Origin: Alkalinema sp. FACHB-956
Lineage (GTDB): Bacteria > Cyanobacteriota > Cyanobacteriia > Leptolyngbyales > Leptolyngbyaceae
Assembly (NCBI RefSeq): GCF_014697025.1
Contig: NZ_JACJRC010000027.1
Location: 1 to 63,899, forward strand
Length of the DNA: 63,899 nt
Direction of reading: 5' to 3'
Position numbers and translations under genes: made by a program
Notes under the pieces: model-generated
Seen by the model: only the letters and a program-made list of their open reading frames with translations
Databases searched by the model: none
Told to the model about the DNA's origin: nothing
Shown: piece by piece, positions 6,440 to 44,731 of the stretch
Layout of the letters: each line of letters opens with the position of its first letter
How positions within the stretch are numbered: position 1 is the stretch's first letter

Positions 6440-6493
6440 TATAATGCAGGCAGATCGCGGGAATTTTTGCGCCTAAGGATATAACTCAAGGAG
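6440..6493 (+). promoter_or_regulatory. Probable -10 box and Shine-Dalgarno for the HNH cassette
   Basis: A consensus TATAAT lies at 6440-6445 and AAGGAG at 6488-6493, nine bases before the ATG at 6503. No convincing -35 hexamer is seen 17 bases upstream. The signals suggest that the cassette has its own promoter, divergent from hsdR. Confidence 0.45.
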
Positions 6494-6502
6494 TGTCACT
6501 CA

Positions 6503-7337: not shown

Positions 7338-7424
7338 TCATATTAGTGATTTGAAATCGTTACGAAAATCTTTATGGCCATGGTTTGCGGGTGGTGATAG
7401 GGAAATTATAGCTTGGGGGCTTGG

Positions 7425-8756
7425 CTAGGGGGAGGCTGCGGCTGTGTCAACGGTGACGCGGACTTTTCCGGTGAGGAGATCTTGCATCAGGCCGGATTTT
7501 TGACTTCGCAGTTTTCTTAGATTGTTTTTTTCCTTATCAATCAGTCCTCTGACAGATGCAACACGATCGATTATTTTTCGCTGTTCTAATTTCTCAGGTA
7601 CAGGAATTATCAGTTTCCTGACAATTGTTTGAGAGATATTGGTTTGAGACTCCGCTAGTCCTGTCTTCAAAGTTGATAGATACGTTTGCGTGGACTCAGA
7701 TGATAATGCTAAAGATAAGAATTCTGCATCTATAGAGCTTTTTGGAACTAGCCTGTATAGTTTATCCGACATCATTAGTTTCTCTTGAGTCGAATAAACA
7801 TAAGCTACCACACCAACACGCGAATTAGGGCCACCTCTAGTTATAAAGACATCACCAACTTTGACCTCATATTGAAAATTAGGCTTTAGTTTAGAAGGTA
7901 AACGCTTATTCTCTAAAGAGTTATATCCGTCCCAAACAACAGCAGTTGTCTTTAGAATTCCCCATTCCCCAGGTGCTGCGGGTTCACTATCACATTCAGG
8001 ACTTTTACCTTGTTCAATACATACTAGCTGATTCGCAACTACTGACTCTTCCCACTCTTTCGGAATCCAACCGATCGCGCTTTCCTTATACAGTTCTGGC
8101 GCATCCTCAAACGTAGGCCGCAGCTTACCCGCAGCATCCACCCCACGGGTAAATAAATCATGCATCATGCCCTGTTTGATGGTCTGATATTTGGCGATTA
8201 GGGCTTCGGTTTTTTCGATGAGATTATCGATCGTGGTTAAGATATTAGCGATTTTTCTCTGCTCTAGCAACGGTGGAAGTTGGATTGGTAGCGACTCAAG
8301 AATAGAGGTATTAATTGAAGTTCGAGTCGTTCCAACTGAAGCTCCTGAAATAAATTCTTGAGACTTTTGATCTAGCAGCGCATACAAAAAATATCGAGGC
8401 TCTAAATTATCATAGGGAACTCTGATGCGGAGCGTTTGGCCAGAAATAATCCAACCAGCTTGCTCATCCGTCACAAGAAAGCAGCTACCCACACGACCCA
8501 CACGACTAAATACAATATCTCCAACCTGCAAGGAATATCGAGCTAAACGTTGTGCATCTTGTTCAGAAATTCTTGGTAAGTCATTTGTAAGTAAACCATT
8601 AGGGCCAATATTGCGAATTAATAGAAATGGTATACCTTCTTCAAGATAGTCATCCGAATGCAGTTGACTCCCAAAAGGCCCAGTTTGGACAGTAAGTTTA
8701 CTTTGATGGCCTAACTCAAAAATTGTCTTTTTTTCCCAATGGCTTTTCTTACTCAT
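7425..8756 (-). CDS. hsdS: Type I restriction-modification specificity (S) subunit
   Basis: Recognises the bipartite DNA target of the type I complex. At 443 residues it has two target-recognition domains, each followed by a conserved helical spacer: [39 protein letters not shown] mid-protein and the parallel [39 protein letters not shown] at the end. [14 protein letters not shown] near residue 25 is typical of the first domain. Its start overlaps the hsdM stop by 8 bases (8749-8756). The internal duplication is intact, so the enzyme should be functional. Confidence 0.93.
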
Positions 8757-11313
8757 AGCCCAACTCCACCAAAAACCGATTCAACTTCTCCGCCTCAGCA
8801 TCCCGCTCCGCCAAAATCTCCTTCAGCGTCACCGCATACTTCTCCCAAAGCCGCTCCACCGCCGCCACAAACGCCCGCACATCCTGCCGCAAATACCCCT
8901 CAAACTGCCCCATCACCAACCGCTCAAACCGCGCCATAATCAACGGCTGCGCCTCCTCCGGCGAAATCCGCTCCCGCGCCTGCTCCACCAACTCATCCCG
9001 CCGCTTCTCCACCTCCCGCACATTCGCCTTCAATTCCTTCAACTCCGCCTCCAACCCCGAATGCCGCGCCAACCGCCCATCGATCTCCCCAAGCCGACTC
9101 TCCAACCCTGCGATCAGACCCTCCATCTCCGCAATCTCCCGCTGCTTCCCCTGCCGCTCTGCCGCTGCAAACCCCGCCTGCTCCATCCGCTTCACATCCT
9201 GCCGCATCACCTTCACCAACTTCAGCCCATTTTTCCGCTGCCCCTCCAAATCCTTCCGCTCCTCCTTCAGCGACTTCACCAATCCCTTCGGCAACACCCC
9301 CTCCTCCGACTCCTCCGGCTCCTCATCCTCATCCCCCGTATCCACCGCCGCAAACAACCCCTCCAACTCCGCAATCCGCCCCTGATCCCGTTCCAACTGC
9401 GCCAACACCTCCGGAAACTGCGATCGCAAAATATCCTCATCCGGAATCAACTCCGGCCCCCAACCACTCGCCGCGATCGACTTCAGATCCGCCCCCACCT
9501 CTTGCAAATAAGCCGCGATCGCCCCCCGCACCTGATGCTCATCCAAAATCCCCTGCGGCTCCAAAGCAGGAACGATCGACGCCAAAAACTTCCGCCGCAC
9601 CGCAAACGCATTCCCCGACTCCGGCAACCCCTCAATCAACAACCGCTGCTGCTTCCACCACATTTGCAACGCCGATCGAAACGTTGCCTGCTTCGCCAAC
9701 ACCCCATCTGACCCCTCAATCAACCGCCGAATCTCATCCTTCGCCCCAATCCCGATCGCAAAATCGCTATAATCCCCTTGCTTCCGGGCCTTAAACAACA
9801 ACGCCCGCACCCCCGCATAATGGGCAAAATACCGCCCCAACGCCTCAATCTCCCGATTCGGGACACCCCCATTCAAATGCGCCCGCACATCCTGCGGCTC
9901 CGGTGGCGGACTATTATCCACATACCGCCGAATATTTAAATTAAACTCCTCCGCCTGCAACTCCTCCCGACTCACCAACCGCGAATAACTCCCTACCTCC
10001 AACCGATTACGATACACATTCGTAATCTTCTCAATATCCTCCGCCCGCAACGAATTCTGATTCTTCCCTTCCCGATACTCCCGATCGGCATTAATAAACA
10101 ACACTCGATCGCGCTCCCTCGCCCCCGATCGGTTCATCACCAACACACAAGCCGGAATCCCCGTCCCATAAAACAACCCCGCAGGCAACCCAATCACCGC
10201 CTCCAAAATCCCATCCTTGATAAATCGCTCCCGGCAAGCCTTCTCCTCACCCCCCCGAAACAGCACCCCATGGGGCATCACCACCGCCATCCGGCCATCC
10301 GCCTTCAGCGACGACACCATATGCTGCACAAACATCAAATCCGCCTTCTTCCCCGACTCCGGCAACCAAGTATGAAACCGCTCCGGAAACTTCAGCCCAT
10401 CCCGCGTGTAATTCTGCGAAAACGGCGGATTGGCAATCACCCGATCGAACCTCACAACCTCCCCATTCTCCACATGCAGCGGGTCTTGCAGCGTATCCCC
10501 CTGCTCAATCTTCGCGCTCGTAATCCCATGCAAAATCATATTCATCTTGCAAATCGCCCAAGTGCCCCCATTTAGCTCCTGCCCCGCCAAAGCCAAATTT
10601 CGCGCATTGCCCCCCGTCTCCGCCACATACTGCTGCGACTGAATCAACATACCGCCCGAACCCGCACAGGGGTCATAGATCGACATCCCCTCCCCCGGCT
10701 CAATAATCTGCACCAACGTCCGCACCACCTCCGCCGGCGTATAAAACTCGCCCCCTTTCTTCCCCGCCGTATCCGCAAAATACTTAATCAAATACTCGTA
10801 AGCCGCCCCCAGCAAATCCGGAAACTCAAAATCCCCATTGCTCAACGGAATCTTACTAAAGTGCTGGATAAACTGCACCAACGTCGCATCCGACATCGGC
10901 TTCTGGCCCACCTTCCGATTGAAATTAATCCCCTTCAGCACATCCTGCAACGCATCGGCATTCGCATCTTCGATCGCCGCCAATGCCTTATTCAGCCCTG
11001 AACCCACCGACTGCTTCAAATGCTGAAGCTGACTCCAATGCGCCTCCTCCGGCACAAAGAAGTCGTATTTATTTCGATTCGCCAACTGCTGCTCAATCAG
11101 CGCAGGCTTCATCCCCTTCGCCTCATAGCCCTGCCGCAACGCCTCCCGATCGGCATCGAACTGGTCACTCAGCCGCTTCAAAAACAGAATCCCAAAAATA
11201 TATTCCTTATACTCCGAGGCATCCATATTGCCTCGCAGAATGTCACAAGCCTTAAATAGCTCGCTTTCCAGCTTGGAGAGAGTTAACTTTTGGGGCTTCA
11301 TAACACACAGCAT
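8749..11313 (-). CDS. hsdM: Type I restriction-modification methyltransferase (M) subunit, long form
   Basis: N6-adenine methyltransferase. The N-terminal HsdM helical domain runs from about residue 12 ([15 protein letters not shown]). The catalytic domain has the SAM-binding DPCAGSGGM at about 214-222 and the NPPF active-site motif at about 295-298. It is 854 residues, well above the roughly 500 of classical HsdM. The extra C-terminal 350 residues include an acidic hinge ([15 protein letters not shown]) and a long predicted coiled coil with many R/E/L residues. The start may be the ATG at 11313 or the ATG at 11301 (MKPQKLTL); neither has a strong Shine-Dalgarno sequence. The antisense open frames here are by-products of high GC. 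Confidence 0.93.
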
Positions 11314-26786: not shown

Positions 26787-27446
26787 CTAGATCGCGGTGA
26801 ATTCCTGCATGAGCCAACGACTCACTTCAGTGTCGTCTTCAGTTTGGTTGCGCTGGAGGGCCGATTCGATCGTGCTGAAGGATAAGCCGGGTAGCACCTG
26901 TGAGACTTGGATTTGCCGACTACCCCGATCGGCGATCGTGAATGCAAAAATGATTCTACCTAAAACGTCAACGATCCAATATTCAGCAACGCCTAATCGT
27001 TCATACAGTAATCGCTTACGTCCTAGATCGTCGTTCAAGCTGGTGGATGCAATTTCGATCACCAGGGTGGGGGCACCATAACGATCGACTTCAATGACTT
27101 CGGTGTTTTTTGGGGGAAAGGGGTTGGGAATGGCGGTTCCGAGGTAGAAGGCGAGATCTGGCTGACATTCCTGTTCTCCGGTGCGACGAAAGCTGCCGTT
27201 GGTGAAGCTTTTGACGGGGAGATTTTTGACGAGACCGTAGAAGCTGACGACTTGGGACAGGAGGGTGTTGTCTTGACTGTGGCCCGATCCAACGCCTATG
27301 GTTTCGATCCTCATCCAGCCGGAATCGTAGTAGCAGCGGGTTTTGTTCTGTTCTGCGTTTTCTGAAGCGGTGAGAAAAGCTTCCCAGGTTGTGGTGACCC
27401 AGGTGTCTGGAATGGGATGGGGTGGAGTGGGCAGGAGGTTGACCAT
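26787..27446 (-). CDS. Uma2/DUF820 family putative endonuclease
   Basis: A 219-residue member of the large cyanobacterial Uma2 (DUF820) family, which has a PD-(D/E)xK-like restriction-nuclease fold. Visible core elements are QPDLAFYLG, PTLVIEIASTSLNDDLGRKRLLYERLGVAEYWIVD and a following β-strand (GRIIFAF). PDL, EIAS and the K of GRKR/YE-LG supply the predicted metal site. Cyanobacterial genomes carry dozens of copies and no cellular role is firmly established. It is not linked to the neighbouring guanidine operon. Confidence 0.88.
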   Translation of the reverse strand: MVNLLPTPPHPIPDTWVTTTWEAFLTASENAEQNKTRCYYDSGWMRIETIGVGSGHSQDNTLLSQVVSFYGLVKNLPVKSFTNGSFRRTGEQECQPDLAFYLGTAIPNPFPPKNTEVIEVDRYGAPTLVIEIASTSLNDDLGRKRLLYERLGVAEYWIVDVLGRIIFAFTIADRGSRQIQVSQVLPGLSFSTIESALQRNQTEDDTEVSRWLMQEFTAI

Positions 27447-27614: not shown

Positions 27615-28469
27615 TTAATGTCGCGTTTGATCAGCCCAAGGCGTGAGCTTCTGCGAGAGAGACTTCAACCCGTAGTCAATCACCAAACCAATCAAACCAA
27701 TCAAAATAATGCAAAACAACACCTTATCCGTTTGCAGAAACCGTTGTGCCTGAATAATCTTGAACCCAAGGCCACTCTGCGCCGCCACCAACTCCGCAAT
27801 CACCAGGAAATTCCAAGCCCCCGAAATATTCACCCGCAAAGTATCCAACACACTGGGAAACGCCGCTGGAATAATCACCTGCAATAAAACATCTCGACGA
27901 CTGCCACCTAACGTATAGGCCACATTGATCATGTCATTGGGAATAAACTTAACCGCATCCGCAATCATGATGGCGTTGTACAACACCACCCCCAACATAA
28001 TGATTAATACCTTAGAAGCCTCCCCCAACCCCAGCCAGATAATAATCAGAGGAACAAACGCCGTCACGGGCATGTAACGCACCGTACCCACGATCGGGGC
28101 AAACAAGCTATCCATGCTGTAGAACGTCCCCATGGCAATGCCCATCGGCACCCCAATCAGCGCCGCCACCAGAAACCCCGCCAAAACCCGACCACTACTC
28201 GCCAACACATCCACAAGTAAATTATTTTCTGCAAACATGGTCATCCCCGCTTGCAGCACTGCCGTTGGTGTCGGCAGAAACATCGGCGGCACCAATCCGG
28301 CATAACTGACGATCGCCCAAGCCAGCAACGGCACAGCCAGCGCCAGCGTCACAATTAGCAGCGACAATCGTTTGGGAAAGCCCTGACGAATGCTCCAGAA
28401 CACGGAGGGCTGTAAATAGGTATGTTCTCGGGGCGTGCTATTTTGCGCGATCGGGGTGAGGGTAACCAT
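27615..28469 (-). CDS. ABC transporter permease of the guanidine cluster
   Basis: A 284-residue permease of the nitrate/sulfonate/taurine type, with about six helices. The cytoplasmic coupling loop region is DAVKFIPNDMINVAYTLGGSRRDVLLQVIIPAAFPSVLDTLRV, a good match to the EAA motif. It starts 15 bases after the glutamine synthetase-like stop. With the ATPase and binding protein upstream it completes one importer; by analogy with Synechocystis sll1080-1082 the likely substrate is guanidine or a related compound. Unusually it is separated from its partners by the synthetase gene. Confidence 0.88.
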   Translation of the reverse strand: MVTLTPIAQNSTPREHTYLQPSVFWSIRQGFPKRLSLLIVTLALAVPLLAWAIVSYAGLVPPMFLPTPTAVLQAGMTMFAENNLLVDVLASSGRVLAGFLVAALIGVPMGIAMGTFYSMDSLFAPIVGTVRYMPVTAFVPLIIIWLGLGEASKVLIIMLGVVLYNAIMIADAVKFIPNDMINVAYTLGGSRRDVLLQVIIPAAFPSVLDTLRVNISGAWNFLVIAELVAAQSGLGFKIIQAQRFLQTDKVLFCIILIGLIGLVIDYGLKSLSQKLTPWADQTRH

Positions 28470-28484
28470 GGTGAGAGTCTCCAG

Positions 28485-29846
28485 TTAGAAAAACTTTAAA
28501 TAGCGTTGCCGTTCCCAATCAGAAATGTGATTGTGATACTCTTGCCATTCCTGGGTTTTGTAGTCCACATAGGATTGGTACATCAAATCCCCCATAACTT
28601 TTTGGCTGAGGGGATCCTGAGCAAAAGCCGCGATCGCCTCGCCCAAGGTGCGCGGTAGACAATGAATCCCCATCTGGGCCAGGGTTTCCAACGAATGGGT
28701 ATACATGTTTTCCGTATGGGGTTCACCGGGATCAAGTTGCTCCCGAATCCCCTCCAAACCCGCCGCCAACAGCATGGCCGCCCCTAGGTAAAGATTGCTG
28801 GAAATATCCGCCGCTCGGCATTCCACCCGCCCGCCTGCTAGGGGAATGCGCAGCATATTGGTACGGTTGTTATTGCCATAGCACATGTAGACCGGAGCCC
28901 AGGTAAAGCCCGACATACTGCCCCGCGCCACCAGTCGTTTGTAACTATTGACCGTCGGCGCAATCACCGCACAGATGGCAGGGGCGTGGCGCAGGATGCC
29001 CGCAATGAATTGATAGCCCAATGGCGATAGCTGACAACCCCGTGGATCGTCTGCGTTGTAAAAAAGATTCTCCCCCGTGTTGATGTCTGCGAGGGACATA
29101 TTGTAGTGGGCACCGCTGCCAGAACGATTGCCAAAGGGTTTGGGCATAAACGTGGCAAAGTAGCCATGCTTGCGGGCAATCTCCTTAACCATCAAGCGAA
29201 AAAACGTAATGCGATCGCTCATTTGCAACGCATCGCAGTAGGCAAAATCCGTTTCAAACTGACCGTTGGCATCCTCATGGTCAAAGGAATAGACATCCCA
29301 GCCCAGTTGATTCATCGCCTCCACGATTTCCGTCACCCAGGTGTAGTTATCCAGCAAGCCTTGCAGGTCATAACAGGGTTTGGCCAAGGTATCGCGATCG
29401 CTGACGGGAATCACCTCACCCTCAGGGGTTTCCTTGAGAATAAAAAACTCCGTTTCAATTCCCAAATTAAACGTAAATCCCATGCGAGCCGCATCATCCA
29501 GCACGGATTTCAGAATACCTCGACAGCAAGCAGCAAAGGGTTGGCCTTTCAGATAGAGATCACTCGCGAACCAAGCGACCTCCGGATTCCACGGCAGAAT
29601 GGTCGCAGATTGGGGATCGGGTCGGGCAGAAACTTCCTCATCACTCACATCCTGGGGCACCCCATCCAAGGCTGCACCCGTGAACAGTTCCGACCCCGCC
29701 ATCATTTGTCCCAGGTGAGACAGGGGCACCGCTTTGGCTTTGCACATACCATGGAGATCGACAAAACTGGCTAGGGCATACTTGACGCCCTTTGCTTCTA
29801 GGGAGGATTTCAGGGTTTGCAGTTCTGGAGTAAGGGTTTCAGCCAT
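28485..29846 (-). CDS. Type III glutamine synthetase-like / γ-glutamylmethylamide synthetase-like ligase
   Basis: A 453-residue member of the glutamine synthetase superfamily. The N-terminal β-grasp region has YALASFVDLHGMCKAKAVPL. In the catalytic region, GIETEFFIL carries metal-binding Glu, FDHEDANGQFETDF holds the next Glu ligands, FMPKPFGNRSGSGAHYNMSL is the His/Gly loop, and ARGSMSGFTWAPVY and RVECRAADISSNLYL follow. This pattern fits the GlnT group (type III glutamate-ammonia ligase or methylamine-glutamate ligase) better than GlnA or GlnN. The ORF could begin at 29879, but MAETLTPELQ at 29846 is a more natural start. It sits inside the guanidine operon, between binding protein and permease. 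Confidence 0.82.
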   Translation of the reverse strand: MAETLTPELQTLKSSLEAKGVKYALASFVDLHGMCKAKAVPLSHLGQMMAGSELFTGAALDGVPQDVSDEEVSARPDPQSATILPWNPEVAWFASDLYLKGQPFAACCRGILKSVLDDAARMGFTFNLGIETEFFILKETPEGEVIPVSDRDTLAKPCYDLQGLLDNYTWVTEIVEAMNQLGWDVYSFDHEDANGQFETDFAYCDALQMSDRITFFRLMVKEIARKHGYFATFMPKPFGNRSGSGAHYNMSLADINTGENLFYNADDPRGCQLSPLGYQFIAGILRHAPAICAVIAPTVNSYKRLVARGSMSGFTWAPVYMCYGNNNRTNMLRIPLAGGRVECRAADISSNLYLGAAMLLAAGLEGIREQLDPGEPHTENMYTHSLETLAQMGIHCLPRTLGEAIAAFAQDPLSQKVMGDLMYQSYVDYKTQEWQEYHNHISDWERQRYLKFF

Positions 29847-29981
29847 GGTGATGATCACTCCGAGTCCAAGGAAACACAAATGAATTGACCGAAAGGTTTT
29901 CTAGCAAATTGGTAAGGAGATTCTCTAAGAGATTTGCAGAATCATTCAGAAATAACTTCAGAAATGATTTTACAAATGATT

Positions 29982-31001
29982 TCACAGTGATTTCACGATC
30001 GAATCGTCGTAGAGTTGATCCGCTTGCAACGGACTGGGAATCATTTTGAAATCGTAGGCCGCCTTGGCGTTGAGTTCTAAATTACCTTTAATGTTTTGCG
30101 GATTGGCTGGATTGAAACCCACCGTCTTATTGCCCTCCACATCAAATAACTTGAGCAGTTTCAATTGCTCCTTCACTTCATCCCCAGAAATTCCCAGCTT
30201 TTCCCCAGTGATCTTCATGGCTTCGGGATCGGCTGCTACCGCCAGTTTCACGGCTTGGTCAACGGCTTTGAAATAGGCTTGTAGATCGGCTTTACGCTCC
30301 TGCAAAATATTGCCATGCACCATCACCACGTCAGCGATCAAGTTTGTGTTCTCCGTTGAGAAAATCACTTCCCCTCCGCCCTGTTGGGCCGCCTTGCGCA
30401 GGTAGGGTTCATAGCTCACAGCGATATCCACTTGTTTCCCAGCAAAGGCAGTGGCAGCATCGGCAGCGGGCATACTTTTAATGCTGACATCATTTTCCGT
30501 CAAGCCCCCTTTGTTTAAGTAGGCTCGCAGCAACACCTTTTCAAACAGGATATCTTCCCGCGCGATCGTTTTGCCTTTGGCATCCTGGGGCGATTTAATG
30601 CCGCGACCAATAATGCCATCGCCCCCATTGGAATAATCAATCAGATAGACGATCTTTGCACTGGGATCCTTAGCGGCAACTTGAACAGCCGTCCCGGAGG
30701 TAAACCAAGCAATGTCGAGCTTTTTAGCGAGAAAAGCCGTCTGCTGATCGCTTTCACTGGTGAAGAAAACGTCTTGGACATTGACCTTTTGTTCCTTAAA
30801 AAAGCCTTTGCCCACGGCAATGTGGTGCCCGGTATAGCCGACCCAGTTGTTCGTTCCGGAAACCAGGGGAGCCGGTTGGTTGGCGTTTTGCCCTGCACAG
30901 GCAACGGTGAGAAAGAGAGAAGCCAACGCTAGGCCCACCATTGACCAAGCTTTGGAAAGTGACCAAGCTTTGGAAAGCGGAGATGGCAAAAATTTAATCA
31001 T
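29982..31001 (-). CDS. ABC transporter substrate-binding lipoprotein of the guanidine cluster
   Basis: A 339-residue periplasmic binding protein of the SsuA/NMT1 type. The N-terminal signal has lipobox LFLTVACAG (Cys at about 36). The mature part starts VSGTNNWVGYTGHHIAVGKGFFKEQKV, typical of this family, and IKSPQDAKGKTIA and DIAVSYEPYLRKA are further family blocks. It sits between the ATPase gene and the synthetase gene. Substrate is inferred from context to be guanidine or a guanidino compound. Confidence 0.88.
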   Translation of the reverse strand: MIKFLPSPLSKAWSLSKAWSMVGLALASLFLTVACAGQNANQPAPLVSGTNNWVGYTGHHIAVGKGFFKEQKVNVQDVFFTSESDQQTAFLAKKLDIAWFTSGTAVQVAAKDPSAKIVYLIDYSNGGDGIIGRGIKSPQDAKGKTIAREDILFEKVLLRAYLNKGGLTENDVSIKSMPAADAATAFAGKQVDIAVSYEPYLRKAAQQGGGEVIFSTENTNLIADVVMVHGNILQERKADLQAYFKAVDQAVKLAVAADPEAMKITGEKLGISGDEVKEQLKLLKLFDVEGNKTVGFNPANPQNIKGNLELNAKAAYDFKMIPSPLQADQLYDDSIVKSL

Positions 31002-31105
31002 GGCTACTGATCCAAGAGGTGCTTAATCAATAGGACAGGTGTAAAAAATGACAGGCTAGGTTACGGATGTACGGAATTAACGCCGTCGATCGCTGGGCTG
31101 CGTGC

Positions 31106-31918
31106 TTAATCATCCCGTAAAGCCTGGAGGACTTGCCGTTTAATGCGAACAAAATCGCTGGAAAGTTTGATGTCTAATTCACGATGTTCCGGAAAAGGCA
31201 CTGGAATTTCCGCGTGAATTCTGCCGGGACGGGCTCGCATGACGTAGACCCGTTGCGCTAGGTAAATCGCTTCCTCCACATCATGGGTAATCATCAAAAT
31301 CGTCACATGGGTTTTCTCCCACAGCTCTAGCAAAAACTGCTGCATTTGTTCCTTGGTTTGGGCATCCAACGCACCAAAGGGTTCATCCATTAACAGCAAG
31401 GCTGGTTCATTGGCGAGGGCACGGGCGATCGCGACGCGCTGTTTCATCCCACCCGACAGTTGCTTCGGATAGGCATGGGTGTAATCACTCAGTCCGACAA
31501 CCTCTAGAAAATACTGCACCCGTTCCCGCTGCTCAGCCTTGGGGATTTTGCGCAGTTTCAACCCAAAGGCCACATTTTGCGCCACGGTTAACCAAGGATA
31601 GAGGGTATACCCTTGAAAAACCATACCCCGATCGGACCCCGGTCGTCCTGTAACCACTTGGCCATCGACATATACTTCGCCGGAGGAGGGCGGGGTCAGC
31701 CCTGCAATGATATTCAGGAGCGTGGATTTTCCACAACCGGAGGAACCTACAAGGCAAATTAATTCACGGGGTTGAATGGAGAAGTTAATGTCATCCAAAA
31801 CGGTGACGGCATTATCCGCCGCTTTGCCCCGGCTCTTGTAGTGTTTGCAGACCTGTTGCACGGAGAGTTTCGCGATCGTGTCATTGCGGGAAATCGGCGG
31901 AGCATATTCTGTCATCAT
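31106..31918 (-). CDS. ABC transporter ATP-binding protein of the guanidine cluster
   Basis: A 270-residue nitrate/taurine-type ATPase. Walker A is VGSSGCGKSTLL, the Q-loop region MVFQGYTLYPWLTV, the signature LSGGMKQRVAIARAL, Walker B LLMDEPFGALD and the switch His ITHDVEEAI. No C-terminal fused domain is present. Its start lies 47 bases after the HypB-like gene. It would energise the permease encoded at 27615-28469. Confidence 0.9.
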   Translation of the reverse strand: MMTEYAPPISRNDTIAKLSVQQVCKHYKSRGKAADNAVTVLDDINFSIQPRELICLVGSSGCGKSTLLNIIAGLTPPSSGEVYVDGQVVTGRPGSDRGMVFQGYTLYPWLTVAQNVAFGLKLRKIPKAEQRERVQYFLEVVGLSDYTHAYPKQLSGGMKQRVAIARALANEPALLLMDEPFGALDAQTKEQMQQFLLELWEKTHVTILMITHDVEEAIYLAQRVYVMRARPGRIHAEIPVPFPEHRELDIKLSSDFVRIKRQVLQALRDD

Positions 31919-31965
31919 GGAGGAGACCCAAAACAGTTGTTAGCGTAACCTGCCTGCAACCGGAA

Positions 31966-32751
31966 TTACACCTGCTCTAAAACGGCTGAATGAGCGTGGG
32001 CATGGACATGGGAATGGGAGTGCGAATCGGAATGAGCATGGGATGGTTGTGAGGGTAACGACTGGGATAATGACTGAGCGTGCGATCGCTGGCATTGGCG
32101 CACCCAATCAAACCACTGATCTAGCCCTTCCCCCGTTTTCGCAGAGACGGGAATAATCGTTACAGTTGGATTCATTTGCCGGACATTGGCAATGATTTGG
32201 TCAATATTGACATCGACATAGGGGGCGAGATCCAGTTTGGTGATCAGTAAGCAATCCGCTTCCTGGAACATCACTGGATATTTCAGCGGCTTATCCTCGC
32301 CCTCGGTGACGCTGAGCAGGGCAACCTTGCCATGTTCCCCCACTTCAAACTCAGCGGGACAAACCAAGTTGCCAACATTTTCCACCAGCACTAAATCAAA
32401 TTCTTCCGGATTGTAATTATGGACGAATTGGTGCAGGCCGCCAGCCACCATTTTGGAATCCAGATGGCAGGAACGCCCCGTGTTAATGGCAATCACGGGA
32501 ACGTTGTACTGGCGCAGGCGATCGGCGTCTAACTCCGTCGTCATATCGCCTTCAATCACCGCGATTTTGAGTTCTTCCGACAGCGTAGCCAGGGTTTTTT
32601 CTAGTAATGCGGTTTTACCTGCACCGGGACTGCTCATGATGTTGAGGCAAGTAATCCCCCATTCATCAAAATGTTCACGGTTGTGGTTGGCTCCCGCTTG
32701 GTTGGCGTGGAGCAGGTTAATTCCCAAGGCGGCGTCAAAGGTTTGGTGCAT
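31966..32751 (-). CDS. ghaB: HypB-like GTPase, nickel chaperone for guanidine hydrolase
   Basis: A SIMIBI GTPase of 261 residues. P-loop [14 protein letters not shown], switch [14 protein letters not shown], the [11 protein letters not shown] metal-binding segment and the base-specific TKLDL motif are all HypB features. Instead of the N-terminal His-rich stretch of many HypB proteins, it has a C-terminal tail with about ten His in alternating HSHSH and HAHAH runs. In Synechocystis the equivalent gene next to the guanidine hydrolase delivers Ni to it and not to hydrogenase; the operon position supports the same job here. Confidence 0.88.
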
Positions 32752-32766
32752 GGTAGGTTAGTCAAC

Positions 32767-33132
32767 TCAACGTGTTGCAGGTTGGGGGCTGTATTCAATT
32801 CGATCGATCTTCAGTTCTCGGCCAGAACGGATGTCTTCCATGGGGGCGTGGCAGGTGGGGCAGGCGTACTGAAGACCGTACTCCGGACGATATTCCTGCT
32901 GACAGGCATGGCAGTAGGCAATCAGGGGCGTCTCCTGGATCACCAGTTCGGCTCCTTGCAGAAAGGTATCGCGGGTTTGTACCTCGAAGGCAAACTGCAA
33001 ACTGACCGGCTCGACACAGGTAAACTGCCCCACGATGAGGTGGATTTTTTCAATCACCGGGCGATCGGGTTGGGCGTCCCACCAGTCGCTGATCGTATTG
33101 AGCAGTGCCCGTGTCATGTCAGTTTCGTGCAT
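32767..33132 (-). CDS. ghaA: HypA-like nickel chaperone for guanidine hydrolase
   Basis: A 121-residue protein with the Ni-binding N-terminus MHETDMTRALL (His2, Glu3) and a zinc site formed by CHACQQEYR and CPTCHAPM. Length and layout are typical of HypA/HybF. It is 16 bases upstream of the HypB-like gene and 29 bases downstream of the hydrolase gene. No hydrogenase gene is in the window, so a role in guanidine hydrolase maturation is the best reading. Confidence 0.88.
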   Translation of the reverse strand: MHETDMTRALLNTISDWWDAQPDRPVIEKIHLIVGQFTCVEPVSLQFAFEVQTRDTFLQGAELVIQETPLIAYCHACQQEYRPEYGLQYACPTCHAPMEDIRSGRELKIDRIEYSPQPATR

Positions 33133-33161
33133 GGTTTAACTCCCAGTTTTAGCTGCCAGTT

Positions 33162-34358
33162 TTAGCTCCAAGCTTGATCAACCGCCATGTTGGCTTCGGG
33201 GTGGATGTAGGCGGGTTTTTCCTTGCGGGGCAGTTGACCAGAGAGCACTAAGTGAGCCATGGCATCGCAGATCACGCGAGTCGCCATCAAAGAAGTCATG
33301 TCGCTGATGTCGTAGGGGGGAGAAACTTCCACAATTTCCAAGCCACAAACGGGGGCTCGCTGGATGATTTTGCCCAGCAGCGCCAGGGCTTCGCGGGGGA
33401 GCAGCCCACCGGGTTCCGGCCAGCCGGTTCCGGGGACAAATCCAGCATCAATGCAGTCAATGTCAAAGCTGATGTAGACACAATCGGTTCCATCTAAGGC
33501 GCGCTCTAGGGCAAATTCTGCCGCCGCATCAATCCCGATTTCGGTAATGTCCGTTACCGTTAGGATGTTGGTCGATCGCTCGCGGCACACCTTCACACCC
33601 TGGCGGGGAACCTGCCAACCACCAATGCCCAGTTGCACTAGATTTTTCGCCGGAGCATTGGCCATGTTCGTGGCGTGGAACCAGGGACAGGTGTGCATCC
33701 GTTCATCCAAATCCGTTTCCTGGGTGTCTACGTGGCGATCGAAGTGGATGATGCCGACTTTCTTATCGCCGAGGTGACGGCACACCCCCCGCACGGTGGG
33801 AAACCCGATCGAGTGATCACCGCCGAGAATGATTGGGAAAGCACCGGAACTAAAGATATGGGCAATGCCTTTGGAAATTTGATCGAAGGATTTTTCGTTG
33901 TTAGCGGGAATGGTAAAAATGTCGCCCACGTCGCAGAGGGTGATCTGTTCCCGTAAATCAACCCCGAATTCAAAGTTATAGGGGGTGTAAAGAGCGGAAA
34001 TGCGGCGAATCCCTTGGGGGCCGAAGCGGGTGCCGGGACGGTAGGTGGTACCGGAGTCGTGGGGAACGCCAACGATCGCCACATCGTACTCGCCCACCTT
34101 GCGCACATCTTCTAAATAGGGCGCTTTGAGGAAGGTGTTAATTCCCGCGAAGTGGGGCAGTTCTCCGCGCGAAAAGGTGGAAATGGTGCGATCGCGAATG
34201 CTATCGGCGGCTTCGAGGCCGTATTCCAGCCCTTGGGAGACTTCCTGCTGCCAACCCGTTAATGGCAGTTGGGCTTCTCGTTCTAACCCGTGACTGGCTT
34301 CTCGACCATTCTGCCTAGGAGGCTGACCCGGGGTTTGAAAGAGTGGATTGTCGCTCAT
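33162..34358 (-). CDS. gdmH: Guanidine hydrolase, Ni-dependent, ureohydrolase fold
   Basis: Hydrolyses guanidine to urea and ammonium. Often annotated agmatinase (SpeB). From the ATG at 34358 (MSDNPLFQTPG) it is 398 residues. Metal ligands are visible: GGDHS (His182), HFDRHVDT (Asp207, His209, Asp211) and SFDIDCIDAGF (Asp299, Asp301). The FDRHVD form, with R in place of the A of the usual DAHxD, and the extended N-terminal ~60 residues match Synechocystis Sll1077, shown to be a guanidine hydrolase. An upstream start at 34526 would translate the riboswitch and is wrong. It is the first gene of the operon. Confidence 0.92.
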   Translation of the reverse strand: MSDNPLFQTPGQPPRQNGREASHGLEREAQLPLTGWQQEVSQGLEYGLEAADSIRDRTISTFSRGELPHFAGINTFLKAPYLEDVRKVGEYDVAIVGVPHDSGTTYRPGTRFGPQGIRRISALYTPYNFEFGVDLREQITLCDVGDIFTIPANNEKSFDQISKGIAHIFSSGAFPIILGGDHSIGFPTVRGVCRHLGDKKVGIIHFDRHVDTQETDLDERMHTCPWFHATNMANAPAKNLVQLGIGGWQVPRQGVKVCRERSTNILTVTDITEIGIDAAAEFALERALDGTDCVYISFDIDCIDAGFVPGTGWPEPGGLLPREALALLGKIIQRAPVCGLEIVEVSPPYDISDMTSLMATRVICDAMAHLVLSGQLPRKEKPAYIHPEANMAVDQAWS

Positions 34359-34386
34359 ATTGGTACCCAAACGAGAATTAGACTGG

Positions 34387-34457
34387 AAAAGCCCGGAATA
34401 TGAGGCTCTAAGTGCCATCTTCAGTGACAACCTAGAACTTTCTTCTCCCGGGCTTTT
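34387..34457 (-). terminator. Riboswitch expression platform: conditional terminator
   Basis: On the minus strand AAAAGCCCGG (34457-34448) pairs perfectly with CCGGGCTTTT (34396-34387), which ends in a T-run. The 5' arm is part of the conserved 3' end of the aptamer, so aptamer and terminator are mutually exclusive. That is an ON switch: ligand binding allows transcription of gdmH. Confidence 0.85.
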
Positions 34458-34594
34458 TTCCCGCCGTGTGACCAGTTTGGGCTGCATCCAGTCCCGATGC
34501 TGGTTTGCCTCTCTTGGACCAGTCACAGTGACCGTTAAACGATCTCCCGTTGAACGAGTGGGCGTTGAACGATCTCTGCCGGAACCCTAGAGGC
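34444..34594 (-). promoter_or_regulatory. Guanidine-I riboswitch (ykkC class) controlling the gdmH operon
   Basis: Read on the minus strand, all conserved elements appear in order: CTAGGGTTCCGG (34590-34579), GACTGGTCC followed by AAGAGAGGC (about 34522-34505), then ACACGGCGGGAAA and AAAGCCCGGGAGA (about 34469-34444). These are the diagnostic guanidine-I blocks. A short tandem-like insertion with repeated GTT(C/T)AACG and GAGATCG elements expands the variable stem at about 34535-34575. The aptamer sits 86 bases upstream of the gdmH start. Confidence 0.93.
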
Positions 34595-34944
34595 TATGAA
34601 TTGTCTTCCGTGCCAGTTTAGTTTGCTGATGACAACAATCCATAGATTACTCACTGAAGCGCAGTCACGACTCACTGAGCAACCCTAACATCGGCTTGTT
34701 GCAATCGGCGGGGACTAAACACTGTCTTTGTAAACATTGTCTTTGATAGATCCAGCGAATTTGTAGACAGAAAACTAGCGGGTTGAACTTTGAAAAGATT
34801 GCAGTCAAAATTTAACCAAGCTACTTCCGTATAAATTCGTAGTGGGTTAATCATCGATCAAGTTCTCAGGGAGAATTGTATTGAAATTAACCAAATGAGC
34901 GAATGATGGGGTGGATGTATATCTTTTCAATAGAGAGCGTGTTA
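34595..34944. other. Intergenic, promoter side of the guanidine operon
   Basis: About 350 bases between the riboswitch and the stop of the glycosyltransferase. It should contain the promoter of the guanidine operon. I looked for a GTA-N8-TAC NtcA site and did not find a good one. No gene seen. Confidence 0.5.
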
Positions 34945-36726
34945 TTACAGATTGTCCGATCTCTGGACCAGTTTCCAGCCTTCATAGGTGGCTAGCACTT
35001 GGGTGCCGTTAGGAAGGGGTTGGTTGGGATCGAGCCATGCAAATGCCGTTGGCCCAAGGGCTGCAATTTCTGGGCTGTGTTGGCCGACTTGGGGGGTGTA
35101 GACACTGAGCAGGAGATAGCGTTTCCGATCGCGCCGACTCAGCGGCTCCTCATTAGCGACAAAATTAATGGTTTGCTGCTGGAGAATTTGTGCGACATTA
35201 GGTTGCTCCAAAAAAGATTTCAGACTAGCTTCATAGTTGCCCCAGAGTCCTGTTGCAAAGATGAAAGACAGGGCTAGCCAAGGAGCCAGGAGAACACTAG
35301 CCAGCCAATGTTTGACCAAGGTAGCCTGCTGGGTGATCGATCGGCGCTGCCAGACGAGCCAGGGAAACAGCCACCCTAGCCCCAGGATGGCGGTAGCCGT
35401 GGCGATCGTTTGAATATGGTCAACTTCTAGCCTGATCACCCCTGCTAAAACCGTTACACTGAGCAGCAGCAGAATAAGGCCCAATCCCCAGAAGGCACGA
35501 CTGAGGTAGCCGAGAAGTTGCGATCGGCGATCGTGTAAATAGTGGGCGACAAAGTGATTGAGAGCGATCGCGGCAAATATTGCAATCCAAGGAAAGAGTT
35601 GTAGGGGATAGTATTGGGTTTTAGTCCCAAAGAGATTGAGTTCTACAAAGAGCGTTACAGGAAATCCTACGAGTAACAGCCAGCGATGGTTCAGTAAGGT
35701 TTTATAAGTATTATTGACAACACTTAGGGCAATGCCGATGAGTCCAAAAAAGACCCAGGGAAAGCCATTAGCAGGAATATTCCAAAAATAATAAAGGGGG
35801 CCTGCACCTTGGTAAGTTTGCTGTTTTAGATGGAAAAGCTTGCCAAACAGTTGCTCAAAAATCCAACCACCATAATTCGCATAGGTTATACCCAGCCAAC
35901 TGACAACGGGGATTAACCCTAGAATAAAGCCCCCATAAAGCCAAGGATTGGATAAATGACGATGGTTGCGATTGGCTCCGATCAGGTAAGGTAACAGCGA
36001 GATCGTGGCGGGAATAATCATAAAGCCCTTAATCAGAAAGCCCCATCCAAACGCAGCTCCGGTCAGTAACAACCAGGGTGAGTTTCCCGAAGTTTGGGGC
36101 GAGGAGGATTGGGACGGTTCTGTAACAGTTGAGAGATTTGTGGAGGAGAGGTTTGTGGAGATTTCTACCGATCGATCGACGGATGGTGTAGTCTCACTAG
36201 TTGGTGTAATTGCAGGCTCAGCTTCCAACATGGCCCAGATTGCCAGCACTTCAATAAAAACTAAAACGCTGTCTTGAGTACCTAGTTTGGCATATTGCAA
36301 TGCAAGCGGTGTCACGACAAAAATGGCCGCCCCTAAGCTGGCCATGAATGGTGTTAGTAACCGAGTCCCAATGCGATAGAGAAGTAAGGTGGTTCCAATA
36401 AAGGCGATCGTGCTGGGCAATCGAACCGCCGTTTCCGTCATCCCCAAGAGGCGATAACAGCCAGCGATGAGCCATTGAATCCCGATCGTGCGATCGAAGC
36501 TCAGGTCATTGCCCCATTTAGGCAGGAGCCAATTTCCAGTCTCTAAAATGTGCTTAGCTTGGGCGGCGTAAATCCCTTCATCATGGGCCATGAGGCTTTG
36601 TTGGCCACTTTGGAGGAGGAGGAGGGGGAGAACCCAGAGCAGCAGCAGTAGGTAGGGGCGAAGGGCAACCAATCTAGGGTGTTGGGTGAGGGGGAAGGCC
36701 AATTGTTTTGAGGTGCTCTGAGCCAT
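34945..36726 (-). CDS. Glycosyltransferase family 39 / ArnT-like membrane protein
   Basis: A 593-residue polytopic protein from MAQSTSKQL at 36726; the frame is open from 36759 but the extra residues look untranslated. About twelve hydrophobic helices. The first periplasmic loop has MAHDEGIYAAQAKHILETGNWLLPKW, including the catalytic Asp-Glu pair typical of GT39/GT83 enzymes that use polyprenyl-phosphate sugars. LSFDRTIGIQWLIAGCYRLLG fits the following loop. A Ser/Thr-rich insertion lies around residues 195-235. The acceptor is unknown (lipid, polysaccharide or protein). Confidence 0.85.
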   Translation of the reverse strand: MAQSTSKQLAFPLTQHPRLVALRPYLLLLLWVLPLLLLQSGQQSLMAHDEGIYAAQAKHILETGNWLLPKWGNDLSFDRTIGIQWLIAGCYRLLGMTETAVRLPSTIAFIGTTLLLYRIGTRLLTPFMASLGAAIFVVTPLALQYAKLGTQDSVLVFIEVLAIWAMLEAEPAITPTSETTPSVDRSVEISTNLSSTNLSTVTEPSQSSSPQTSGNSPWLLLTGAAFGWGFLIKGFMIIPATISLLPYLIGANRNHRHLSNPWLYGGFILGLIPVVSWLGITYANYGGWIFEQLFGKLFHLKQQTYQGAGPLYYFWNIPANGFPWVFFGLIGIALSVVNNTYKTLLNHRWLLLVGFPVTLFVELNLFGTKTQYYPLQLFPWIAIFAAIALNHFVAHYLHDRRSQLLGYLSRAFWGLGLILLLLSVTVLAGVIRLEVDHIQTIATATAILGLGWLFPWLVWQRRSITQQATLVKHWLASVLLAPWLALSFIFATGLWGNYEASLKSFLEQPNVAQILQQQTINFVANEEPLSRRDRKRYLLLSVYTPQVGQHSPEIAALGPTAFAWLDPNQPLPNGTQVLATYEGWKLVQRSDNL

Positions 36727-39675: not shown

Positions 39676-40848
39676 ATGACACAGAAAGCCTTCAAGTATC
39701 GCTTTTATCCCACGCCTGAGCAAGAAACCTTGCTGAGACGCACGATGGGCTGTACTCGTTTGGTCTATAACCGCGCTTTGGCAATCAGGACTGAGGCTTG
39801 GTATAGCGAAAAGAAACGAGTCGGTTACAGCGATACTTCGGCAATGTTGACCGAGTGGAAAAAACAAGATGACCTCCAGTTTTTGAATGAGGTTAGCTGT
39901 GTCCCGTTGCAACAGGGATTGAGACATCTTCAGAAAGCGTTTAGCAACTTCTTTGAAGGACGGGCAAAATACCCCACCTTTAAAAAGAAACGAAACGGTG
40001 GGAGTGCAGAGTTTACGAAGTCTGCGTTCAAGTGGAAAGACGGGCAAGTTTACCTTGCTAAGTGTTCTGAACCCTTGGCTATCCGTTGGAGTCGAGAACT
40101 CCCTGAAGGCGCAATTCCATCGACGATTACGGTGAAGCTTTCGCCTGCCGGACGATGGACAGTTGCTCTGTTGGTGGATGTTGAAATCGAACCATTGCCC
40201 CAATCCTCGAATCAAATCGGGATTGATTTGGGAGTAACTAGTTTGGTTGCTCTGAGCAATGGAGAGAAGATTGCCAATCCCAAAGGCTTCAATGCGAAAC
40301 GTCGAAAGCTTAAAAAAGCCCAGAAAGCGTTGGCACGGAAGCAAAAAGGGTCGCGCAATCGCCATAAGGCACGTCTGAAAGTCGCTAAAGTGCATCAAGA
40401 AATTAGCGATGCACGAAAGGACTTCCTTCACAAGCTGACAACTCGATTGGTACGCGAAAACCAAACGATTGCGGTCGAGGATTTGGCGGTGAAGAACATG
40501 ATTAAGAACCGGAAACTCGCACTTTCGATCAGCGATGCAAGCTGGGGAGAGTTGGTCAGGCAGCTTGAATACAAGTGTGATTGGTATGGTCGCACGCTGG
40601 TCAAGATTGACCGATGGTTTCCGAGTTCTAAGCGGTGTGGCAATTGTGGACATATCGTTGAGACATTGCCGTTGAACATTCGGGAATGGGATTGCCCCAA
40701 CTGTGGAACGCACCATGACCGGGACATTAACGCTGCAAATAACATTCTTGCCGCAGGGCTTGCGGTGAAAGTCTGTGGAGCGAACGTAAGACCGGAAAGG
40801 CATAAGTCTGATGGCGGTTGCTATGAAGCAGAAAGGTCTAAGAAGTGA
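39676..40848 (+). CDS. tnpB: RNA-guided endonuclease TnpB
   Basis: A 390-residue TnpB/OrfB protein. The N-terminal helix-turn-helix region starts MTQKAFKYRFYPTPEQETLL. The RuvC-like nuclease has the three catalytic acids: Asp in QIGIDLGVTSL, Glu in TIAVEDLAV and Asp in HHDRDINAANNI. A zinc ribbon lies between the last two (CGNCGH and CPNCGT). All features are intact, so the protein should be an active ωRNA-guided nuclease. An antisense open frame of 414 codons covers the whole gene and is a shadow. Confidence 0.93.
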   Translation: MTQKAFKYRFYPTPEQETLLRRTMGCTRLVYNRALAIRTEAWYSEKKRVGYSDTSAMLTEWKKQDDLQFLNEVSCVPLQQGLRHLQKAFSNFFEGRAKYPTFKKKRNGGSAEFTKSAFKWKDGQVYLAKCSEPLAIRWSRELPEGAIPSTITVKLSPAGRWTVALLVDVEIEPLPQSSNQIGIDLGVTSLVALSNGEKIANPKGFNAKRRKLKKAQKALARKQKGSRNRHKARLKVAKVHQEISDARKDFLHKLTTRLVRENQTIAVEDLAVKNMIKNRKLALSISDASWGELVRQLEYKCDWYGRTLVKIDRWFPSSKRCGNCGHIVETLPLNIREWDCPNCGTHHDRDINAANNILAAGLAVKVCGANVRPERHKSDGGCYEAERSKK

Positions 40849-44104: not shown

Positions 44105-44731
44105 ATGAAGATTCATTATTTTGCTCTACTTGCCGTTGTATCACTATTGAGTTTTGGCGCGATCGCGGGTTGTTCCGGTTCCACAACCTCTCAAGCCCCC
44201 TCTAGCCCAACCGCTGAAGTGGCAAGCAACCCCTGTGCAGCCAAGTCGAATCCCTGTGCAGCCAAGCCGAATCCCTGCGCAGCCAAGTCGAATCCCTGTG
44301 CAGCCAAGTCGAATCCCTGTGCAGCCAAGTCGAATCCCTGTGCAGCCAAGCCGAATCCCTGCGCAGCTAAAGCAAAATCTGTGGGCGCACCTCTCGCGCA
44401 AGAACTTCAGGGCAAACCGGTTGTTGTTGATGTATTCGCAACCTGGTGTCCTGCTTGCAAAAATATTGCCCCTACCTTGTCTCAACTGAAAAAAGACTAT
44501 GACGGGAAGGTACATTTTGTTGTACTCGATGTGAGCGATAAATCAACCACCAGCGAAGCTGAAGCAACGGCGAAGAAGCTGGGTTTGAGTCAATTTTTGG
44601 AAATGAATAAGGCTCAGACGGGTTCATTAACCATTGTCAATCCAGCGACTGGCGAGATTTTGGCCCAACATCGTAATAATGCCAATCTTGCAGACTATAC
44701 CTCAGTTCTCGATGCGGCTCTGAAGCAATAG
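44105..44731 (+). CDS. Thioredoxin-fold lipoprotein with seven NPCAAK repeats
   Basis: From the ATG at 44105 the protein is 208 residues: lipobox AIAGC at about residues 18-22, a short Ser/Thr linker, then seven tandem copies of NPCAAK(S/P/A), then a thioredoxin domain with FATWCPACKNIAP. The repeats add seven Cys at regular 7-residue spacing, an unusual tether that could bind metal or exchange disulfides with the nearby active site. The repeat region is a 21-bp DNA repeat and may vary in copy number. It lies between its paralogue and a CcdA-like gene. Confidence 0.82.
   Translation: MKIHYFALLAVVSLLSFGAIAGCSGSTTSQAPSSPTAEVASNPCAAKSNPCAAKPNPCAAKSNPCAAKSNPCAAKSNPCAAKPNPCAAKAKSVGAPLAQELQGKPVVVDVFATWCPACKNIAPTLSQLKKDYDGKVHFVVLDVSDKSTTSEAEATAKKLGLSQFLEMNKAQTGSLTIVNPATGEILAQHRNNANLADYTSVLDAALKQ
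44228..44374 (+). repeat. 21-bp in-frame tandem repeat, 7 copies
   Basis: Each unit encodes NPC-AAK-X. Copies differ only at a few third positions and at the last codon (TCG/CCG/GCA), which points to recent expansion. Confidence 0.93.

Follow-up and report, generated by a model that had tools for sequence, protein, structure and literature searches.

The guanidine operon and its described counterparts

Synechocystis PCC 6803 possesses a guanidine operon, sll1077–sll1082, coding for GdmH, the HypA/HypB-like proteins GhaA and GhaB and an ABC importer, and the components reported for it in the available text of PMC8390497, PMC12186494 and PMC12930504 (a guanidine-I riboswitch, a guanidinase, two nickel-delivery proteins and an ABC importer) are all shared by the window analysed here, a stretch of 63,899 nucleotides from Alkalinema sp. 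FACHB-956. The window locus departs from the Synechocystis operon by the addition of a ligase gene and by the order ATPase, binding protein, ligase, permease. The closest solved counterparts of this ligase, in both sequence and fold, are GmaS enzymes (7cql, RhGmaS; 9qur, the glutamate–methylamine ligase of Methylovorus mays), while glutamine synthetase (GS) of B. subtilis (4s0r chain) shares its superfamily and catalytic core. Like the window locus, the guanidine carboxylase operon of Vreelandella boliviensis is under a guanidine riboswitch and includes accessory enzymes beyond those of guanidine breakdown, but according to the available text of PMC12508155 it serves the carboxylase route and carries a dioxygenase and a lyase rather than a glutamate ligase.

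Analysis of the locus (Table 1) confirmed the greater part of the original prediction, which had proposed a guanidine-I aptamer, an FDRHVD-type ureohydrolase (found to be an arginase-fold enzyme with an HFDRHVD motif), HypA- and HypB-like chaperones (both above curated cut-offs) and an ABC importer trio of ATPase, lipoprotein and permease (recognised by family models), with every element on one strand. An operon for guanidine use, similar in kind to that of Synechocystis, is thus supported. The expectation that standard annotation would mask the locus also proved justified, the generic family names being agmatinase, HypA/HypB and taurine/sulfonate transporter. The proposed short gaps did not, however, hold everywhere: the interval between the lipoprotein and permease genes measured 1.5 kb and held an intact gene absent from the gene list of that prediction. 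The description of the locus as complete import, maturation and hydrolysis likewise needs amendment, since it left out this GmaS-like ligase gene, and the importer lineage differs from the usual gdmH-linked one. Read outward from the aptamer, the genes are gdmH, HypA, HypB, ATPase, binding protein, ligase and permease, and we assign a probability of about 0.8 to their being a seven-gene guanidine-induced operon in which the additional enzyme is a GmaS-type γ-glutamyl ligase and not a GS that assimilates ammonia. The guanidinase part by itself would be an ordinary new example of an operon type already described for Synechocystis (available text of PMC8390497 and PMC12186494).

Table 1. Features of the guanidine operon, with positions in the window.
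Feature	Position	Strand	Basis
ABC importer permease	27615..28469	-	PF00528, 84.7 bits
GmaS-like glutamate ligase	28485..29846	-	TIGR03105, PDB relatives, residues, fold search
ABC substrate-binding protein, NMT1/SsuA-like, probable lipoprotein	29982..31001	-	PF09084; LTVAC by eye
ABC importer ATPase	31106..31918	-	PF00005
HypB-like GTPase, His-rich tail	31966..32751	-	TIGR00073, 311.5 bits (equivalog cut-off 121.2)
HypA-like nickel chaperone	32767..33132	-	TIGR00100, 121.8 bits (equivalog cut-off 88.1)
GdmH-type guanidine hydrolase; agmatinase-like by family models	33162..34358	-	arginase family, 7esr/7oi1, residues
Leader 3' of aptamer	34359..34442	-	ViennaRNA fold, complementarity, spacing
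Guanidine-I riboswitch aptamer	34443..34601	-	RF00442

The 104 bases before the binding-protein gene and the 135 bases separating it from the ligase gene leave room for further promoters. NtcA-like GTA-N8-TAC sites numbered five in the window against 3.8 expected, with none in 34602–34950, and consensus scans for promoters and terminators returned fewer sites than the shuffled mean.

Riboswitch, guanidinase and nickel chaperones

A covariance-model search with RF00442 scored the aptamer at 68.7 bits (E 4.2e-10; gathering cut-off 63), the sole match found in the 6.16-Mb genome with 150 of 211 first-look candidates scored. The leader holds CCGGGCUUUU, which by ViennaRNA folding and complementarity can pair with the aptamer 3' arm AAAAGCCCGG 51 bases upstream, and this pairing is likely to constitute an attenuator: binding of guanidine to the aptamer would keep the 3' arm from pairing with the downstream segment, and transcription would continue. 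The available text of PMC6031431 identifies the conserved A46 of the guanidine-I riboswitch as separating guanidine from ppGpp/PRPP variants. Compared by motif rather than by residue number, the window aptamer carries CCAAGAG, which also occurred in seven of 49 relatives (CCGAGAG in 38) and in 21 of 55 pattern matches of gdmH loci.

The guanidinase matched its solved relative, the Synechocystis enzyme (7esr/7oi1; PMC11410670), at 793.8 bits, and retained all ten metal-binding and guanidine-hydrolysis residues named in that source (T105, H182, D207, H209, D211, H222, D299, D301, W313 and E344 in N. inopinata numbering). Its start is more likely ATG 34358 than GTG 34526, because the latter falls within the aptamer. 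Taken at face value, the generic family names would describe an ordinary agmatinase accompanied by genes for hydrogenase maturation and for taurine transport, and the NCBIfam agmatinase score of 173.3 bits lies barely below the cut-off of 174.3; it is nevertheless below, the enzyme has Thr105, His222, Trp313 and Glu344, the residues proposed to act in guanidine hydrolysis, and a guanidine riboswitch precedes the gene, all of which renders that description highly improbable.

HypA and HypB, the latter being the only HypB above cut-off in the genome, would load nickel into GdmH, which, to judge from the reaction that others have demonstrated with the enzyme of Synechocystis, would convert guanidine to urea and ammonium. 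The urea could in turn be split by the urease encoded elsewhere in the same genome (urease alpha on C3, away from the locus; 1005.1 bits).

The ABC importer

Among the 25 NCBIfam matches listed, the ATPase reached no model over its cut-off, and the binding protein, in which a lipobox-like LTVAC was noted by eye, had no match among PDB sequences at E 0.001. Where a match was found, the binding protein was 24–29% identical to that of the importer usually linked to gdmH, and its own type was encountered in only one (L005, 69%) of 80 gdmH loci, many of which were incomplete. By these comparisons the importer belongs to another lineage than that usually located behind cyanobacterial gdmH, and for that reason its proposed role, the uptake of guanidine or of a guanidine-yielding compound, is a presumptive one. 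Two genomes (G142 and G276) carry, besides a cassette of the window kind, a second importer that is of the usual guanidinase-operon type and stands apart behind a riboswitch, so that the window-type importer may carry something else.

A GmaS-like ligase

The additional gene codes for a protein of 453 aa that scored 580.6 bits against TIGR03105, ‘type III glutamate--ammonia ligase’ (cut-off 469.6), a family name that is misleading for this subfamily. Its best solved relatives were 9qur (410.8 bits) and 7cql (338.8 bits), glutamine synthetases scoring at most 267.5 bits, and a fold search with the predicted model (mean pLDDT 83.8) placed GmaS chains at ranks 1–5. Pairwise alignment revealed Thr56 in place of Asp50' and Trp in place of the Glu-flap Glu, residues that bind and deprotonate ammonium or act as base (available text of PMC7948447) and that GmaS lacks likewise, in contrast to B. 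subtilis GS. Throughout 90 subfamily members the former position was occupied by Thr in 87 and by Val or Ala in the other three, and the latter by Trp in 88. The pocket residue Lys30' and the catalytic Asp177, Glu186 and Arg312 of GmaS (roles as given in the available text of PMC7948447) were retained.

The methylamine-pocket residues Gln175 and Asn188 were, however, replaced by Ser (90 of 90 members) and Asp (89 of 90), and His237 by Asn; since the two pocket residues differ, the enzyme was classed as GmaS-like rather than as GmaS, from which it is further distinguished by its guanidine-riboswitch context and by its placement in a clade apart (SH-aLRT 99; the tree was a quick one and carried long-branch warnings). 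Residues and kinship together point to an ATP-dependent γ-glutamyl ligase of the GmaS kind, not an ammonia-assimilating GS.

The simplest identity for an extra gene of this superfamily would have been such a GS, capturing the ammonium released by guanidine breakdown, and several observations accord with it: the TIGR03105 assignment, the production of ammonium whether guanidine is broken down by guanidinase or by guanidine carboxylase (available text of PMC12186494), one or other of which the carriers possess, the acceptance of ammonium by RhGmaS, albeit with a Km much higher than for methylamine (available text of PMC7948447), and the Asp and Asn at positions 188 and 237, both of which are found in B. 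subtilis GS. This identity was nonetheless rated lower, and is regarded as unlikely, because both ammonium-site residues are missing; furthermore, the genome already has another GS-superfamily gene, on C19, in which Asp50' is kept. A further copy, with GmaS residues, lies on C6 of the same genome. Plasmid relatives of the ligase amounted to 237 records, all less than 60% identical and, among the 40 matches listed, named glnT or glutamine synthetase or devoid of annotation, and they shed no further light on the enzyme. No report of the subfamily was found in the open-access literature searched.

Distribution and neighbourhood of the ligase subfamily

Of the 388 cyanobacterial genomes sampled, 84 possessed a member of the subfamily. 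Leaving out the window's own member, a guanidine-I riboswitch lay within 10 kb of 45 of 89 members (0.47 expected), and in 36 it was upstream on the same strand, the ligase being the first gene, 85–178 bp behind the riboswitch, in 12 of those 36. For the other 44, some of which were on short contigs, no riboswitch was detected within that distance; other riboswitch-less ligase genes occurred in clusters with Rieske oxygenases or adjoined a second GmaS-like copy. The association with riboswitches recurred across several operon layouts and lineages.

GdmH was detected in 56 of the 84 carrier genomes as against 103 of the 304 others, an odds ratio of 3.9 that ignores kinship; the carriers are mutually related and such counts are consequently not independent, nor are at least those gdmH loci that are also sampled genomes (L005 = G309, L029 = G027, L069 = G329). 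The remaining 28 carriers had no GdmH match at E 1e-120. Among the 19 of these that were tested, 16 had a urea/guanidine carboxylase above cut-off, compared with none of eight tested carriers with GdmH; in two more the carboxylase was in two pieces, and G061 gave a partial match only. The notion that the ligase substitutes for guanidinase in carriers lacking GdmH was rejected as stated on account of these 19 genomes. Some genomes pair the ligase with guanidinase, others with guanidine carboxylase.

Possible acceptors of the ligase

By either route, the ligase would couple glutamate to the nitrogen of an amine or guanidino group arising during guanidine uptake or degradation; candidate acceptors are guanidine itself, other amines or guanidino compounds, and ammonia. 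The company kept by relatives of the cassette, which carry a metallo-beta-lactamase-fold hydrolase, a creatininase-family protein, an isochorismatase-family hydrolase or Rieske oxygenases, suggests one possibility, tentative as it is: ligase and importer could form a feeder module for a non-guanidine amine or guanidino compound, from which the hydrolases or oxygenases release guanidine while the ligase glutamylates the amine or guanidino moiety. In two genomes, G142 and G276, the cassette is provided with its own riboswitch, apart from both the riboswitch-led importer and UAAP/Cgd-type operons, and a precedent exists in the Vreelandella guanidine-riboswitch operon, which demethylates methylguanidine to guanidine (available text of PMC12508155). 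The window operon, however, has no such hydrolase and the creatininase of G309 is reduced to a 63-codon remnant, so these hydrolases appear dispensable; moreover, in the 12 genomes with the ligase first behind the riboswitch the usual guanidinase-operon importer follows, a layout suggesting that the compound dealt with is free guanidine.

That same layout, together with the association of the ligase with either degradation route, favours the joining of glutamate to guanidine itself, yielding γ-glutamylguanidine for detoxification, storage or alternative use, a proposal that we consider possible but rather less than probable. The acidic residues of GmaS are kept, and the exchange of Gln175 and Asn188 for Ser and Asp places one extra carboxylate near a cationic acceptor relative to GmaS; this Asp is nevertheless common to ordinary GS and consequently no mark of guanidine. 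A frequent neighbour of the ligase is the creatininase family, and the substrate of creatininase is a cyclic acylguanidine. Against the proposal, guanidine is only weakly nucleophilic at physiological pH, and nearly half of the subfamily had no detected riboswitch nearby. Among the open-access papers listed, none mentioned ‘glutamylguanidine’.

It is therefore put forward only tentatively that a riboswitch-controlled cyanobacterial subfamily of GmaS-like enzymes glutamylates guanidine, in the window from within a guanidinase operon and elsewhere beside guanidine carboxylase; if true, this would represent a third kind of bacterial guanidine chemistry beside hydrolysis and carboxylation. Guanidine riboswitches have a repeated record of exposing hidden metabolism, and the ligase subfamily poses the concrete and cheaply addressed question of which nitrogen compound is glutamylated: guanidine as the acceptor would mean a new route of guanidine handling, whereas another amine would hint at where guanidine comes from in nature or at what accompanies it.

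The Guanidinase Operon and an Overlooked Gene

Gene and family searches located an operon spanning 27615–34601, exclusively on the minus strand, with intergenic gaps in transcription order of 29, 15, 47, 104, 135 and 15 bases. The aptamer, guanidine hydrolase (GdmH), HypA, HypB, ATPase, binding protein and permease listed in the original prediction were all found, the aptamer by a covariance-model match over its gathering score; missing from that list was a glutamine-synthetase-superfamily gene, hereafter the ligase. The next gene downstream, coding for a Uma2-family protein 168 bases past the permease, was not counted in.

Features of the operon and of other parts of the window
Feature	Position	Strand	Remarks
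Guanidine-I aptamer	34443-34601	-	RF00442, 68.7 bits; gathering score 63
GdmH	34358-33162	-	Arginase family
HypA	33132-32767	-	Third element in transcription order, after aptamer and GdmH
HypB	32751-31966	-	Over HypB cut-off
ABC ATPase	31918-31106	-	After HypB
Binding protein	31001-29982	-	After ABC ATPase
Ligase	29846-28485	-	TIGR03105, 580.6
ABC permease	28469-27615	-	Last gene of operon
Uma2-family protein	26787-27446		Outside operon
Resembles type I restriction-modification locus	2201-11313	-	R, S and M subunits, by eye
ORF resembling, by eye, IS200/IS605 TnpB-type protein	39676-40848	+	
21-bp tandem repeat in thioredoxin-like ORF	44231-44367		6.5 copies, encoding NPCAAKS/NPCAAKP; thioredoxin likeness by eye

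Many other short tandem repeats (period 10–34; 45 rows, some overlapping) were scattered through genic and intergenic parts of the window.

GdmH narrowly missed the agmatinase family model (173.3 bits; cut-off 174.3), and scored 793.8 and 594.6 bits respectively against the enzymes from Synechocystis, of solved structure, and Nitrospira inopinata, the sources to which the solved guanidinase entries are assigned in PMC11410670. All ten of the metal-binding and guanidine-hydrolysis residues named there were retained, which together with the Synechocystis match upholds, at the level of sequence, the proposal that this variant ureohydrolase is a guanidine hydrolase. In the genome searches a single urease alpha subunit passed its cut-off, and the only HypB to do so was the operon's own. 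The guanidinase operon is sound and of a known kind, the type having been described for Synechocystis in PMC8390497 and PMC12186494, and the same six genes plus a ykkC-type leader for Limnospira in PMC8400943.

The guanidine-I riboswitch was the only one in the genome among the 150 of 211 first-look candidates that were scored. A guanidine-switched-on attenuator in its leader is plausible because the aptamer 3' arm, AAAAGCCCGG, is complementary to CCGGGCUUUU, which starts 51 bases after the arm, and the resultant hairpin was present in the ViennaRNA minimum-energy fold. An exact complement of the last nine bases of the arm occurred within 200 bases in five of 49 other riboswitches from the fetched loci, and allowing one mismatch raised the number to 25; the remaining 24 either use a different platform or were missed by the complement test.

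Characterisation of the Ligase

The ligase exceeded the cut-off (469.6) of TIGR03105, 'type III glutamate–ammonia ligase', and its best solved relatives were glutamate–methylamine ligase (9qur, 410.8 bits) and RhGmaS, a gamma-glutamylmethylamide synthetase (GmaS; 7cql, 338.8 bits), with glutamine synthetases (GS) behind at no more than 267.5 bits. A structure model built from 16 sequences (mean pLDDT 83.8, pTM 0.90) returned GmaS chains at ranks 1–5 of a fold search, GS following close behind.

According to PMC7948447, GS depends on two residues, an Asp in its Asp50' loop and the Glu-flap Glu, at sites occupied in RhGmaS by Ala48' and Trp300, the latter enzyme working with Asp177, Glu186 and Arg312, and with Lys30' in its amine pocket. 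The window's ligase has Thr and Trp at the two GS sites and retains all four of the other residues; five of seven amine-pocket residues were likewise kept, Gln175 being replaced by Ser and Asn188 by Asp, a residue also found at position 188 in B. subtilis GS. These residues suggest GmaS-like chemistry. A single pattern at 22 checked positions was shared by 86 of 114 aligned sequences, the window's included, and within the 90-member subfamily Ser175 was present in 90, Asp188 and Asp177 in 89 each, Trp300 in 88 and Thr48 in 87. Of the 24 sequences outside it, 22 carried Gln175 plus Asn188 and two were GS. The window's genome holds a second copy (contig C6), 44% identical and with GmaS residues, and a third (C19) with the GS Asp. 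Comparison with three loci (L144, L145, L128) gave dN values of 0.09–0.10 and dS values above 2, which are near saturation, and thereby indicated purifying selection.

A quick, midpoint-rooted IQ-TREE analysis of the 114 sequences, subject to the program's long-branch warning, separated the 90 members from RhGmaS and the C6 copy by a branch with SH-aLRT 99, and gave no firm place for the window's ligase within the subfamily.

Recurrence Beside Guanidine Riboswitches

Across 388 genomes sampled evenly over the cyanobacterial class, the ligase subfamily (E ≤ 1e-160) was detected in 84, GdmH (E ≤ 1e-120) in 159 and the window-type, NMT1/SsuA-like binding protein (E ≤ 1e-60) in 44; ligase and GdmH occurred together in 56 (odds ratio 3.9, p 9e-8, with no correction for kinship). 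Among 80 named GdmH loci, many ended by contig ends, four contained the ligase (L005, L029, L031, L069) and one (L005) the window's importer type.

With the window's gene excluded, 36 of 89 ligase genes had a riboswitch upstream on the same strand and no more than 10 kb away; 45 had any riboswitch within that distance and 44 had none detected, one of the underlying searches having been run with Infernal's stricter filters. Riboswitch number and genome size predicted 0.47 such genes against the 45 observed, the genes being related. The ligase is a real, recurrent neighbour of guanidine riboswitches. The open-access literature searched contained no description of such a ligase, although the operon tables of Nelson 2017, Sinn 2021 and Funck 2022 may list the gene; none of the listed papers on guanidine and operons named a type III glutamine synthetase, the open-access matches listed for glutamylguanidine and guanidine riboswitch made no mention of glutamylguanidine, and nothing in that literature combined guanidine, riboswitch and creatininase.

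Layouts of the 89 ligase genes, the window's not among them (G, sampled genomes; L, fetched loci; MBL, metallo-beta-lactamase-fold gene; CRE, creatininase-family gene; usual importer, the type behind most cyanobacterial gdmH)
Layout	Order	Number	Remarks
A	Riboswitch, ligase, usual importer	12 genomes	Riboswitch 85-178 bp before ligase; Rieske oxygenase in 11, contig ends in twelfth (G352)
B	GdmH, HypA, ligase, HypB, usual importer	11 loci	Riboswitch detected in 7; L213, L217 incomplete (L213 gdmH beyond contig end)
C	Riboswitch, GdmH, HypA, HypB, ligase, usual importer	7	L169 incomplete
D	Riboswitch, GdmH, HypA, HypB, ATPase, binding protein, ligase, permease	G299, G309, plus window	G299: MBL and CRE still ahead of ligase; G309: MBL and 63-codon CRE remnant, locus ends after ligase
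E	Riboswitch, ATPase, binding protein, MBL and/or CRE, ligase, permease	8	Without GdmH in that operon; in G006, divergent from riboswitch-led gdmH operon
F	Ligase, permease on other strand, ATPase, riboswitch, binding protein	7	

On the tree, with every layout counted against the others, A, C and F each formed one cluster, and B, D and E required two changes each. Of the 42 genes falling in none of these layouts, some sat in Rieske plus creatininase clusters and others adjoined another GmaS-like gene. The window's operon contains neither of the two hydrolase genes (MBL, CRE), nor an isochorismatase-family gene; members of these three families occur in guanidine-riboswitch cassettes of relatives (L128:1422-5958, L144:4102-8930, L145:1683-1871).

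Several guanidine operons, whether or not they contain the ligase, have a Rieske oxygenase gene after the importer genes (L198:12479-13630, L215:8577-9683, L170:13326-14426; also L036, L042 and L083); these oxygenases are perhaps counterparts of the Vreelandella methylguanidine hydroxylase.

Importers and Routes of Guanidine Degradation

In two genomes (G142, G276) a separate riboswitch belongs to each of three units, namely the ligase cassette, the usual importer and the UAAP genes (TIGR03424/03425), an arrangement suggesting that the window-type importer may serve a different compound from the usual one. The window's genome yielded no close relative of the binding protein of the usual type, the best matches outside the window being 24–26% identical.

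Elsewhere, a locus on contig C19 of genome G161 (L126) has the window-type importer, its binding protein 80–81% identical, behind a guanidine-I riboswitch, and lacks the ligase; genes that look transposase-like by eye lie among those of the importer, and a second riboswitch is some 5 kb off. A record titled Candidatus Gracilibacteria (L067) holds a gdmH operon with a GdmH 85–86% identical to the window's; that genome bin is probably mislabelled or mixed.

Urea/guanidine carboxylase (TIGR02712) was matched in all 19 that were tested of the 28 ligase carriers without a GdmH match (16 over the cut-off, two in two pieces and one partial), and exceeded the cut-off in none of eight tested carriers with GdmH. 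At the loci looked at, the carboxylase genes were preceded by the two UAAP genes, which we take to code for carboxyguanidine deiminase subunits, with guanidine-I riboswitches ahead of them (G197, G095, G288, G244 and G204 are examples); in G190 the order was riboswitch, window-type binding protein, riboswitch, two UAAP genes and carboxylase. The ligase therefore accompanies guanidine use by either route.
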